Below, piece by piece: positions 29,567 through 34,664 of a stretch of DNA of 64,000 nucleotides. A program made the translations under genes and the position numbers. Location: positions 1-64,000 of the forward strand of contig NZ_NSIU01000008.1 of assembly GCF_002633015.1 (NCBI RefSeq), written 5' to 3'. This DNA comes from Sulfuricurvum sp. PD_MW2. GTDB lineage: Bacteria; Campylobacterota; Campylobacteria; Campylobacterales; Sulfurimonadaceae. The notes under the pieces are model-generated. The model searched no databases. It had not been told where the DNA came from and was given only the letters and a program-made list of their open reading frames with translations. How positions within the stretch are numbered: position 1 is the stretch's first letter; each line of letters opens with the position of its first letter.

Positions 29567-30997
29567 ATGGGTAAATTCGTAAACAGTGTCGACGAGTTTT
29601 TCAGTTTTTGTAAAGAGAACGACGTTCAGTTCGTAGATTTTCGCTTCACCGATATGAAAGGGACATGGCATCACGTTAGCTACCGTATGAGTGCGGTCAA
29701 CAAAGGACACTTTGAAAACGGCCTTCCGTTCGATGGTTCTTCAATCGATGCTTGGCAGCCGATTAACCGTTCAGATATGCTTTTGATCCCAGATGCTCCA
29801 AGTGCTTTCATGGATCCGTTTACTGCTGATCCGACCATCATTGTTTTCTGTGACGTTTACGACATTTACAAAGGTCAAGCGTACGAAAAATGCCCACGTG
29901 CAATCGCGAAAAAAGCACTTGAGCACCTTGCTAACGCAGGTGTAGGTGACGTTGCGTATTTTGGACCTGAAAACGAATTTTTCGTATTCGACGATGTAAA
30001 AATCCGTGATGAAGCAAACTGCTCATACTACGAAGTAGATACTGAAGAGGGTGGTTGGAACGATGCAAAAGATTTCAAAGACGGTTTCAACACAGGTCAC
30101 CGCCCACGTACAAAAGGTGGATACTTCCCGGTAGCACCAATCGATACCATGGTTGATCTACGCGCCGAAATGATGTTGGCGTTGGAGCAAGTAGGTCTTG
30201 AAGTAGTTCTTGGTCACCACGAAGTTGCACAAGGTCAAGGGGAAATCGGTATCGTTTTCGGAACACTTGTAGAAGCTGCAGATAATGTTCAAAAACTCAA
30301 ATACGTTATCAAAATGGTTGCTCACCTTAACGGTAAAACAGTTACTTTCATGCCTAAACCGCTTTATGGAGATAACGGTAATGGTATGCACGTTCACCAA
30401 TCAATCTGGAAAGATGGTAAAAACACATTCTACAAAGAGGGTGGTTACAGCAACTTGTCTGAAACAGCACTTCACTATGTAGGCGGTATTTTTGCTCACG
30501 CACGTGCGGTTGCAGCATTTACTAACCCATCTACCAATTCATACAAACGTCTTATCCCTGGATTCGAAGCACCGTCAATCTTGACGTATTCAAGCCAAAA
30601 CCGTTCTGCTTCTTGCCGTGTTCCATACGGTGCAGGTGAAAAAGCGACACGTATCGAAATGCGTTTCCCAGATTCTACTTCATGCCCATACCTTGCATTT
30701 ACTGCAATGTTGCTTGCAGGTCTAGATGGTATCAAAAACAAAACGGTACCGGTTGGACCGATGGATGAAGATTTGTTCGAACTTACTCTTAATGAAATCC
30801 GTGAAAAAGGTATCCAACAAATGCCACACACACTACGTGGTGCATTGGAATCATTGATCCGTGATAACGAGTTCTTACAACCGGTTATGACTCCTGAGTT
30901 TATCGATACATATCAAAACTACAAATTTGAAACACAAGTATGGCCTGACGAAGCTCGTCCGACTGCATTCGAATTCAAATCTACTTACTCTTGTTAA
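29567..30997 (+). CDS. glnA: Type I glutamine synthetase
   Basis: A 476-residue enzyme that makes glutamine from glutamate and ammonia. It has FDGSSIDAW near the N-terminus, [29 protein letters not shown] and the NRSASCRVP loop. The adenylylation region near the C-terminus is degenerate. ATG follows AGGAGATTTGC. The gene is transcribed alone and ends at a GC-rich hairpin. Confidence 0.97.
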
Positions 30998-31003
30998 TCT
31001 TCC

Positions 31004-31025
31004 GTGCGGGGTGAAAGCCCTGCAC
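31004..31025 (+). terminator. glnA terminator hairpin
   Basis: GTGCGGGG and CCCTGCAC pair with one G/U around a GUGAAAG-type loop, 7 bp after the glnA stop codon, followed by a pyrimidine-rich stretch ending CATTTTTATT. Confidence 0.7.
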
Positions 31026-31061: not shown

Positions 31062-31320
31062 TGTATTTTTCTTTTCTTGTCGCCAAGAAAAAGAAACAAA
31101 AGAAGCGCATCTCTTCGACAAATCGCTCACGCGACTATTGGCACTACTGCCATCACGCGTGGCTTTTAAGGATGTCGAAGAGATGTTTTATTATTTAAAA
31201 CTCCCGTGATCTAATAACAAAGCGCCGCTCCGAAGGCAGTAGTGCAGAGAGGAACGTGCGTTCTTGGATCACGGTATGATCTTTTGGTACTTTTCTGACT
31301 AAACAGAAAAGTACATATCA
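31062..31320. repeat. Structured repeat-like element between glnA and pckA
   Basis: A non-coding stretch of about 260 bp made of successive inverted repeats. TTTTCTTG/CAAGAAAA (31072-31091) opens it. CATCTCTTCGACA/TGTCGAAGAGATG (31108-31120, 31173-31185) is a perfect 13-pair stem holding CACGCG/CGCGTG. CCGTGATC/GATCACGG (31204-31211, 31267-31274) is a second stem. The loops carry GCACTACTGCC (31141-31151) and GGCAGTAGTGC (31235-31245), which pair over 11 bases across the two hairpins. GTACTTTTCTG/CAGAAAAGTAC (31287-31297, 31304-31314) closes the element. No protein gene is supported. It may be a MITE-like repeat or a structured RNA. Confidence 0.65.
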
Positions 31321-31340: not shown

Positions 31341-32924
31341 TTATGGAAGTTTCGGACCGGCAGCAGAGTAGTCGAAATCGCTATTGCCGTCGGTATATTT
31401 TTGAAAGTTTTTGATGAAAAGTGCCGCTAAATTATCACGTTGAACGAGATACGCATCACGATCTGCCCAGGCGTTACGAGGATTTAGGATCACAGGATCG
31501 ATATCACCGAGTGTTTTAGGGATATGGAAACCAAAAGTATTAGTGATATCGAATTCACTCTCTTGGATTGAACCGTCCAAGATAGCATTAATACATGCAC
31601 GGGTGTCTTTGATACTCATACGCTTACCGACACCGTATCCGCCACCAGTCCATCCGGTATTAACAAGATACACATTAACCCCGTATTGGTCAATTTTTTC
31701 CCCAAGAAGTTTGGCATAAACAGTAGGGTGCAATGGCAAGAACGCTTCTCCAAAACATGAACTGAATGTTGCAACCGGCTCAGTAATACCACGCTCTGTC
31801 CCTGCTACTTTAGCGGTATATCCGCTCAGGAAATAATACATTGCCTGCTCTTTGGTGAGTTTGCTTACCGGAGGCAATACACCAAACGCATCGGCAGAGA
31901 GGAAGATAATATTTTTTGGATGCGGTGCCATAAGGGAAGGCTGATGGTTTTCAATGTGCTCAATTGGGTATGAAACACGGGTATTCTCTGTTTTTGAATC
32001 ATCGGTATAATCGACAATTCCGTCTTCATCAAACACAACGTTTTCTAGCAGGGCATTGCGGCGAATCGCGTTATGAATTTCAGGTTCGCTGGACGGGTCA
32101 AGGTTAATCACTTTTGCGTAGCATCCACCTTCGAAGTTAAATACACCTTCATCATCCCATCCGTGCTCATCATCACCGATAAGAGCACGTTTTGGATCTG
32201 TTGAAAGGGTTGTTTTCCCCGTACCGCTTAGACCGAAGAAAAGACATGTGTCGCCTTCGGTTCCAACGTTTGCCGAACAGTGCATAGAGAGCTTTCCTTC
32301 AAGAGGGAGCCAGTAGTTCATCATCGAGAAAATACCTTTTTTCATCTCTCCGCCGTACCATGTTCCGCCAATAATACACAGGTTGTCTTCTACACTAAAG
32401 AGGACAAAAACTTCAGAATTCAAACCGTGATTTTTCCACTTTTCGTTCACCGCTTTACACGCATTGAGAACGGTGAAATCTGGCTTAAACCCTTCAATTT
32501 CCGTTTCTGTAGGACGGATAAACATATTTTTCACAAAATGAGATTGCCATGCGATTTCAGAGACAAATCGAACTGAACGTTTACTTGATGGGCTAGATCC
32601 GCAAAATACATCGGTGATATAAAGGTCTTTATCAGAGAGTTGTTCACGTGCTACAACAAGAAGCTCATCAAAAACCACTTTATCGATTTTTTTGTTGACA
32701 TCTCCCCATGCGATATATTTATTCGAAGGATCTTGATTGACAAAATATTTATCTTTTGGACTTCGACCGGTGAAGATACCCGTATCGACCATTGTTGCAC
32801 CACTGCTTGCAAGTTTGCACTCGCCGTTATCGAGTTCGTGTTGAATCAGCTCATCAAAGCTAAGGTTATGGAAAATCTTTCCACTGTTTTTTATGCCTAA
32901 CGTCTCAATCTCTGCGGAAATCAT
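31341..32924 (-). CDS. pckA: ATP-dependent phosphoenolpyruvate carboxykinase
   Basis: A 527-residue enzyme interconverting oxaloacetate and PEP with ATP/ADP. Kinase-1a loop [12 protein letters not shown], the metal motif [11 protein letters not shown], and RSPKDKYF near residue 55 define the ATP-type family. In an autotroph using the reverse TCA cycle it may feed gluconeogenesis. A perfect 17-bp palindrome lies 27 bp upstream of its ATG. The gene stands alone. Confidence 0.97.
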
Positions 32925-33615: not shown

Positions 33616-34101
33616 ATGAAACGTTCAGGTTTTACTATGATCGAGTTGATCTTTGTTATCGTTATTTTGGGTATTTTGGCTGCGGTAGCTATTCCGCGTC
33701 TGACTGCAACTCGTGATGATGCAAAAGCATCAAAAGTTGTAGCAGATTCTGCGACACTAATATCTGATTTAGGCAATTATTATACGTCAAAAGGCACATT
33801 TACCGGTGCAACATTGGGTGCTGTAACAAATGTTATGTTCGGTACTACAGCTGCACCTACGGCTGGTACTTCAACATTAACAACTGGTGGTTATACATTA
33901 ACAGATGGTACAAATACATGTTTGACATTGACTACTGTTACAGCAGATGGGAATGTGACCGTCACTCCTGCTGCTCTTGGAACAAGTTCCATATGTGATC
34001 AAGCAATTAAAGCTGCTGTAAAATCTGGAATGGTTGGTGGTACAATTGCTGCACCAGCTGCTAAAACTACTCGCTTTGGTGGTTCAAGCGTAAGCTATTA
34101 A
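33616..34101 (+). CDS. Type IV pilin-like pseudopilin
   Basis: A 161-residue prepilin with the cleavage motif MKRSG^FTMIEL and the hydrophobic helix FVIVILGILAAVAIPRL. The rest is Ala/Thr/Gly-rich with two Cys (TCLTL, SICDQ) that may form the terminal disulfide. It follows AAGGAGTAAACC and is followed by a strong terminator. It could be a type II secretion or type IV pilus subunit; no assembly genes are in the window. Confidence 0.92.
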   Translation: MKRSGFTMIELIFVIVILGILAAVAIPRLTATRDDAKASKVVADSATLISDLGNYYTSKGTFTGATLGAVTNVMFGTTAAPTAGTSTLTTGGYTLTDGTNTCLTLTTVTADGNVTVTPAALGTSSICDQAIKAAVKSGMVGGTIAAPAAKTTRFGGSSVSY

Positions 34102-34143: not shown

Positions 34144-34208
34144 CTATTATTTTGACTTTTGGGATTTGATTTAATATCGTAAAACTCAGAGTAATTAGGA
34201 TGATTAAA

Positions 34209-34664
34209 ATGAAACGAACGGCTTTTACGATGATTGAGCTTGTATTTGTAATTGTCGTTATTGGGATTTTGTCGGCAATTGCAATCCCACGACTAGCTGC
34301 AACGCGAGATGATGCACAAATTGCGAAAGGGAGAAGTGATGTTTCTGCTATTCGTGCTGCCATTGTCAGCGAACGGCAAACAAGGCTTTTACAAGGGAAT
34401 ACCGCATATATAAATCATTTAGATCATCAAGGTGCTACATCAGCAGATGGAGATACTTTGTTTGATAATAACGGTGTAGCAAGTCAAACATTATTGCAGT
34501 ATGGCATTGCATCTGGATCTACAAATGGACATTGGCGAAAAACAGCTGCAGACACCTATCAATATAGAATTCTTGGAAATGATGTACAGTTTACGTATAC
34601 GCAGGCAACCGGTGCATTTGATTGTAATCACAATAATGCTAATTGTAAACTTCTCACGGACTAA
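34209..34664 (+). CDS. Second type IV pilin-like pseudopilin
   Basis: A 151-residue prepilin beginning MKRTA^FTMIELVFVIVVIGIL and sharing IPRLxATRDDA with the previous gene, a likely paralogue. ATG at 34209 has AGGA eight bases upstream. Two Cys (FDCNHNNANC) lie near the C-terminus. Its stop codon is in frame with and four codons before the priA start, so the two genes are probably co-transcribed. Confidence 0.92.
   Translation: MKRTAFTMIELVFVIVVIGILSAIAIPRLAATRDDAQIAKGRSDVSAIRAAIVSERQTRLLQGNTAYINHLDHQGATSADGDTLFDNNGVASQTLLQYGIASGSTNGHWRKTAADTYQYRILGNDVQFTYTQATGAFDCNHNNANCKLLTD

Follow-up and report, generated by a model that had tools for sequence, protein, structure and literature searches.

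The stretch of DNA analysed here (the window) comprises 64,000 nucleotides of Sulfuricurvum sp. PD_MW2, and lies on contig C45 of a 2.26-Mb genome assembly (76 contigs, 99.99% complete). Two convergent genes, glnA (glutamine synthetase, 29567-30997, plus strand) and pckA (ATP-type phosphoenolpyruvate carboxykinase, 31341-32924, minus strand), were assigned on the basis of open frame and sequence type. The element under study is located between their facing 3' ends. A terminator scan detected a hairpin resembling an intrinsic terminator downstream from glnA (31004-31025, plus strand), outside the element. This hairpin is also present in genomes G023, G016, G014, and G019. Since glnA has this conserved hairpin of its own, the element is not the only possible terminator of the gene. 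Two adjacent prepilin-like genes are found beyond pckA (33616-34101, MKRSGFTMIELIFVIVILGILAAVAIPR..., and 34200-34664, MKRTAFTMIELVFVIVVIGILSAIAIPR...). As proposed in an initial reading of the sequence only, no protein accounts for the region 31062-31320.

The element (31068-31314) consists of two modules of about 115 bases that are of one kind and in opposite orientations. The left module, designated type A1 (31068-31185, plus strand), matched a covariance model of the repeat family with 86 bits (E 7.7e-15) and displayed 93% identity across 117 bases with a copy in genome G016. In the orientation of the model, it contains a hairpin, P1, followed by CAAAAG and by a long stem-loop, P2. P1 (31067-31096, inverted repeat I6) has arms at 31067-31079 and 31084-31096. 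The linker motif CAAAAG (31097-31102, plus strand) is almost invariant across the family. P2 (31108-31185, inverted repeat I3) is closed by 13 pairs (31108-31120 with 31173-31185, 100% complementary) and harbors an internal loop, AAATCGCT facing GGCTTTTAAGGA. Its apex, GGCACTACTGCC (31140-31151, plus strand), corresponds to P4 of the family, which has covarying pairs and the loop CTNC. An A+T-rich spacer, TTTTATTATTTAAA (31186-31199), separates the two modules, as does a comparable spacer in other dimers.

The right module, of type B and inverted relative to the left one (31202-31314, minus strand; 96.5 bits, E 5e-17), has three additional copies in the same genome, which were detected by DNA search at 85-87% identity. 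Its P2 (31204-31274, inverted repeat I5) is built on an 8-pair stem (31204-31211 with 31267-31274, CCGTGATC and GATCACGG), which is part of a 15-nt match of 87% and is extended with bulges. The apex, GGCAGTAGTGCA (31235-31246, plus strand), is followed by the linker motif, read here as CTTTTG (31281-31286, plus strand), and by a P1 hairpin of 11 perfect pairs, GTACTTTTCTG..CAGAAAAGTAC (31287-31314, inverted repeat I7), located 27 bases from the stop codon of pckA. The predicted fold of a 264-nt segment was far better than that of dinucleotide shuffles for both strands (z scores of -7.8 and -7.2; none of 200 shuffles as good). The stems of 13 and 8 pairs, the CAAAAG/CTTTTG terminal repeat (31097-31102 and 31281-31286), the hairpin-forming ends (31067-31096 and 31287-31314), and an 11-base complement between the two loops, all of which had been noticed in the sequence-only reading, are present in the element.

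The 11-base complement (31141-31151, GCACTACTGCC, with 31235-31245, GGCAGTAGTGC) had been taken to indicate that the two loops could kiss or form a pseudoknot. The complement is exact, and an inverted match of this length is estimated to occur by chance about 0.01 times in 260 bases. However, the complementarity of the two apices results from the inversion of the right module, the two halves of the element being inverted copies of one module with a near-palindromic apex. The complementary loops are therefore a single conserved apex (GGCA-CTNC-TGCC) present on opposite strands. Among 29 inverted dimers, the apical loops were complementary in 7 cases versus 6.2 with shuffled partners (p 0.43), and single modules devoid of any partner loop are common. 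A kissing-loop or pseudoknot regulatory RNA was therefore rejected as highly improbable.

To define the family, we used a covariance model built from 33 modules. Modules were detected in 35 of 41 Sulfuricurvum genomes, with up to 38 modules per genome and seven in the genome harboring the window. Of 60 related genomes, 34 contained matches in a DNA search. The prediction that the element is a recurring intergenic repeat was thus borne out, with hundreds of related modules found by the covariance model and copies found by DNA search both in the same genome and in relatives. Among 347 sampled genomes of the phylum Campylobacterota, the only further members were those of a sister genus belonging to the same family and those of one genus belonging to another family. 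These modules are diverged and scored lower. The type present in the genus of the other family was also found in a Sulfurovum record. The sister-genus and Sulfurovum modules have different loops and stems and an unchanged architecture. On contig C4 of genome G016 (2,574,824 bases), about 23 of the 28 listed modules are found no more than 0.5 Mb from one of the contig ends, and these modules may surround the replication origin. A subset of modules displays an additional conserved flank, GGGAGATAGTYTGAAATGTGGGGTGAGG, after P1 (L047, 2633-2660, 4208-4240, and 7711-7760; L046; L031; L038), which suggests that these modules were copied along with adjoining sequence. At G000:C68:69950-70158 (L003, L013), a single B module is located beside a second P1-like hairpin devoid of a body, possibly a decayed dimer.

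The modules share a fixed order comprising the A+T hairpin P1 (CTTTTCTT..AAGAAAAG), the linker CAAAAGA, and the long imperfect stem P2. The latter is interrupted by an asymmetric internal loop, with AAATCGCT or AACGCT on one side and GGCTTTTAAGGA or GGCTCTAGG on the other, and ends with the GGCA-CTNC-TGCC apex. In a sequence-only alignment of the 33 modules, the covariation score of this structure was 0.456, compared to 0.160 for shuffles and at most 0.121 for slid versions, and changes on both sides were observed for 10 of 11 P2 pairs (10-11 across the family). The score was 0.492 versus 0.136 for 113 distinct modules, an alignment that was fitted to the covariance model and is hence biased in its favour. 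In P1, covariation was located at the ends of the hairpin. The compensatory changes that the sequence-only reading had called for are therefore extensive in the stems of the modules. The internal-loop and apex motifs are kept while the neighbouring stems vary.

Mismatches in P1, P2, and P4 revealed a difference between the strands. In the orientation of the model, A.C mismatches outnumbered G.T mismatches by about 4:1 (63 versus 16, p 9e-8). The numbers were 45 versus 15 (p 1e-4) after clustering at 85% identity and 27 versus 14 (p 0.06) when the modules were reduced to eight clusters. Since an A.C mismatch corresponds to G.T on the opposite strand, these results indicate that wobble pairs are tolerated on the strand reading P2, TTTTCTTTTG, and P1 in this order. 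Selection for folding, either as RNA or as single-stranded DNA, has probably acted on this strand. For the element in the window, the folding strand would be the minus strand for the left module and the plus strand for the right module. In view of this bias, the repeat may be RNA-based, as suggested earlier. The eight positions following P2 contain 6.2 T residues on the P2-to-P1 strand, 4.9 on the other strand, and 3.1 at random.

The position of the modules relative to genes was determined for 75 elements with two callable neighbours, with open reading frames defined simply as the longest frames. The slots were convergent in 43 cases, tandem in 30, and divergent in 2. In tandem slots, the upstream stop codon was at a median distance of 9 bases and the downstream start codon at a median distance of 54.5 bases. 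Convergent slots were occupied by head-to-head dimers (19) and single modules (24) at similar frequencies. For 17 of the 24 single modules, both stop codons were at a maximum of 20 bases, leaving no room for another terminator in those genes.

Comparison of species revealed 15 orthologous junctions, several of which differ in module type or orientation. Between glnA and pckA, the module pair is A1 followed by inverted B in the window, whereas other species harbor an inverted B module alone, B followed by inverted A2, a P1 hairpin only (one species), or no element (many species). Junctions are therefore reused across species while the occupant modules change. Flips of dimers could be explained by recombination between the near-identical P1 ends. 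Junctions between glnA and pckA devoid of the element (G010, G030, G005, G033, and G018; L156, L160, L166, L168, and L171) often contain another palindromic repeat, GTTCGTGGTGAGCYTGTCGAACCATGAACGG, and/or a small pilin-like gene.

The explanation that we favour, with a probability of about 0.42, is that the element is a head-to-head dimer of a REP/BIME-like module acting as a portable, orientation-tolerant, structured, putative 3'-end element. In the RNA read in the order P2, TTTTCTTTTG, and P1, P2 would fold and would be followed by a U-rich tract. At the junction, this combination could halt RNA polymerase or make it pause, so that transcription of either convergent gene would not run into the other. 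A dimer would provide a boundary effective in both directions, whereas a single module would depend on A+T-rich flanks on either side of P2. The covarying fold, the placement at gene 3' ends, the strand bias, the T-rich tract, and the turnover of occupants at junctions would all be consistent with such a role, as would the G+C-rich hairpins that precede TTTTCTTTTG in several copies from two firmicute drafts, some of them just behind a stop codon (see below). Several observations are at odds with a terminator. Single modules in tandem slots do not favour the orientation expected of a one-way terminator, since 15 of them have P1 and 8 have P2 towards the upstream stop codon. In type B modules, 6 bases separate P2 from the T-run. 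The terminator scan, limited to loops of 3 to 8 bases, yielded no call for the element, whether in the window or in L021 and L252; the hairpin upstream from it at the end of glnA was the only one identified. Finally, a similar placement has been reported for REPs, with no more than 20 bases to either stop codon for most convergent copies (PMC3733652), and selection against insertion elsewhere could yield the same placement.

The latter consideration is central to the explanation that we rank second, a possible but less probable one, according to which the element is a non-autonomous mobile repeat (REPIN/MITE-like) devoid of host function. A transposase acting in trans would recognise the single-stranded DNA of its hairpins, and residence at gene 3' ends would merely be what selection leaves. 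Dispersal as single modules and inverted dimers, swaps of module types at one junction, and patchy high-copy expansions in distant phyla (see below) would be accounted for. The strand-specific fold is compatible with recognition of single-stranded DNA, and REPINs provide a precedent (PMC3116915). However, no gene for a Y1 (RAYT/IS200) transposase, PF01797, was found in the genome harboring the window or in the copy-rich genomes G035 (19 modules), G014 (16), and G061 (13). The number of modules was not correlated with that of Y1 genes in the 41 genomes (Spearman -0.08, p 0.61). A RAYT/Y1 enzyme as the current mobilising driver is therefore unsupported by presence and absence across these genomes. 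The survey, which covered the Y1 class of transposases, detected no autonomous version of the module. The orthologous glnA-pckA junctions displayed no visible target duplication and no clean empty site. In addition, the repeated occupation of junctions and the long conservation of the internal-loop motifs suggest that the modules are more than debris. The mobility proposed in the sequence-only reading is partly supported by the refilling of the same junctions by other modules in either orientation, but these searches revealed no transposase, duplicated target, or autonomous version. Carriage by phages or plasmids was rejected, since phage and plasmid records contained no match to the module and viral contigs contained no exact P1 pattern.

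The conservation of the internal-loop and apex motifs amid changing stems would also be expected if the module were a structured RNA tail bound by a protein or a nuclease, i.e. a stabiliser or processing site of 3' ends rather than a terminator. The putative binding site would be the internal loop (AATCGCT facing GGCTTTYAAGGA, or AACGCT facing GGCTCTAGG), and the strand bias likewise points to a folded single strand. We consider this explanation unlikely, as copies in firmicutes (see below) keep P1 and the linker without the internal-loop motifs. We also considered a recombination site located between gene cassettes, similar to integron attC sites, as certain clusters of modules (G026:C78 and G025:C47) have short genes of one strand as neighbours, some of which form toxin-antitoxin-like pairs. 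This is very improbable, since the conserved inverted GTTRRRY/RYYYAAC box was not found in the module alignments and the arms of P2 vary freely. Cassette arrays were rejected: the clusters appeared array-like at first, but the neighbours in the sister genus are ordinary genes on both strands. One of the clusters (L047, 4920-7860, in G026:C78) contains short same-strand genes (hemerythrin-like, DUF4160/DUF2442-like, and HigB/HigA-like pairs) separated both by copies of AAAAAGTAGCCTGTCCCCTTTTT and by the module, and resembles a gene-acquisition spot with several kinds of repeats at its borders.

To search beyond the phylum, the 3' arm of P1 and the linker were used as an exact pattern to scan 84,980 species genomes. 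Matches outside Campylobacterota were found in a Clostridia draft, in a Selenomonadaceae draft, and at single loci in Nitrospirae, Bacteroidota, and other firmicutes. At most of these loci, the palindrome is completed by the 5' arm of P1, which was absent from the query. As anticipated, ends of the CTTTTCTT..AAGAAAAG type thus recur in other bacteria. The full P1 pattern with the linker was present in 82 exact copies in the Clostridia draft and 105 in the Selenomonadaceae draft, and a reversed control pattern had no match in either. The P2 bodies of these copies are unrelated, and the internal-loop motifs of the Sulfuricurvum type are not shared. In several copies, a G+C-rich hairpin continues directly into TTTTCTTTTG, and several are located immediately behind a stop codon. 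Gene-context statistics are not reported for the firmicute drafts owing to the bad behaviour of the naive open reading frame caller in the G+C-rich one of the two. In samples of 299 and 296 genomes from two phyla, only the seed genome matched, indicating a very patchy distribution. For these P1-linker sequences, a shared ancestor, horizontal transfer, and convergence towards an effective U-tract are indistinguishable.

A broader and rather doubtful extension of the portable 3'-end element would be a cross-phylum class of elements combining the P1 hairpin, CAAAAGAAAA, and a species-specific P2. Such elements would be copied from junction to junction by a putative enzyme recognising one folded strand and would serve as swappable transcription boundaries between convergent genes. 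That P1 and the linker reach a very high copy number in drafts of two distant firmicutes, no transposase being known, raises the testable question of what copies the elements. A second testable question is whether genes depend on the modules for ending transcription.

When the window and eight relatives were compared with the known RNA families of Rfam release 15, no family scored at or above the gathering threshold over the element. A known RNA family was rejected on this basis. The matches below the threshold involved lncRNA and Phe-leader models only and were at chance level. The module shares strong covariation with the structured RNAs of Rfam. The motif strings of the module were not found in the literature, and a search by concept only retrieved surveys of REPs, REPINs, and stem-loops.

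The closest likeness is to REP/BIME sequences (Di Nocera et al., 2013, PMC3733652), which are also dispersed palindromes, often organised as inverted dimers, with compensatory variation in their stems, and which occupy slots between convergent or same-direction genes (43 convergent, 30 tandem, and 2 divergent slots here). In contrast to REP palindromes of 20-40 bases, the Sulfuricurvum module is about 115 bases long and contains two hairpins, a conserved internal loop, and a linker. It has no unpaired GTAG or CGTC tag, P2 being adjoined by AAAATCGC, AGCGC, or GCATA in Sulfuricurvum; by inspection, the CGTC of the sister-genus and Sulfurovum copies is within a stem. There is no association with RAYTs. 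As for REPINs (Bertels and Rainey, 2011, PMC3116915), the inverted pair is the apparent unit, single modules are likely remnants, and a single-strand fold is predicted, but the two modules of a pair are often of different types and no matching transposase was found in the genome harboring the window. The A-rich/T-rich bidirectional intrinsic terminators of low-GC firmicutes (Petrillo et al., 2006, PMC1590033) similarly combine a stem near the stop codon with a preceding A-run and a following T-run. Unlike these terminators, the modules belong to a dispersed family related in sequence, contain a second hairpin, and have conserved internal loops, and the element in the window is not called by simple terminator rules. 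Together, these results indicate that the modules are a real repeat family of REP/BIME-like behaviour, undescribed in the literature and databases searched, which differs from REPs in the defining features of size, tag, and RAYT. Palindromic intergenic repeats are common, but few combine a conserved fold and freely varying stems with constant internal-loop motifs, wobble specific to one strand, and a swapping of occupants at the same junctions.
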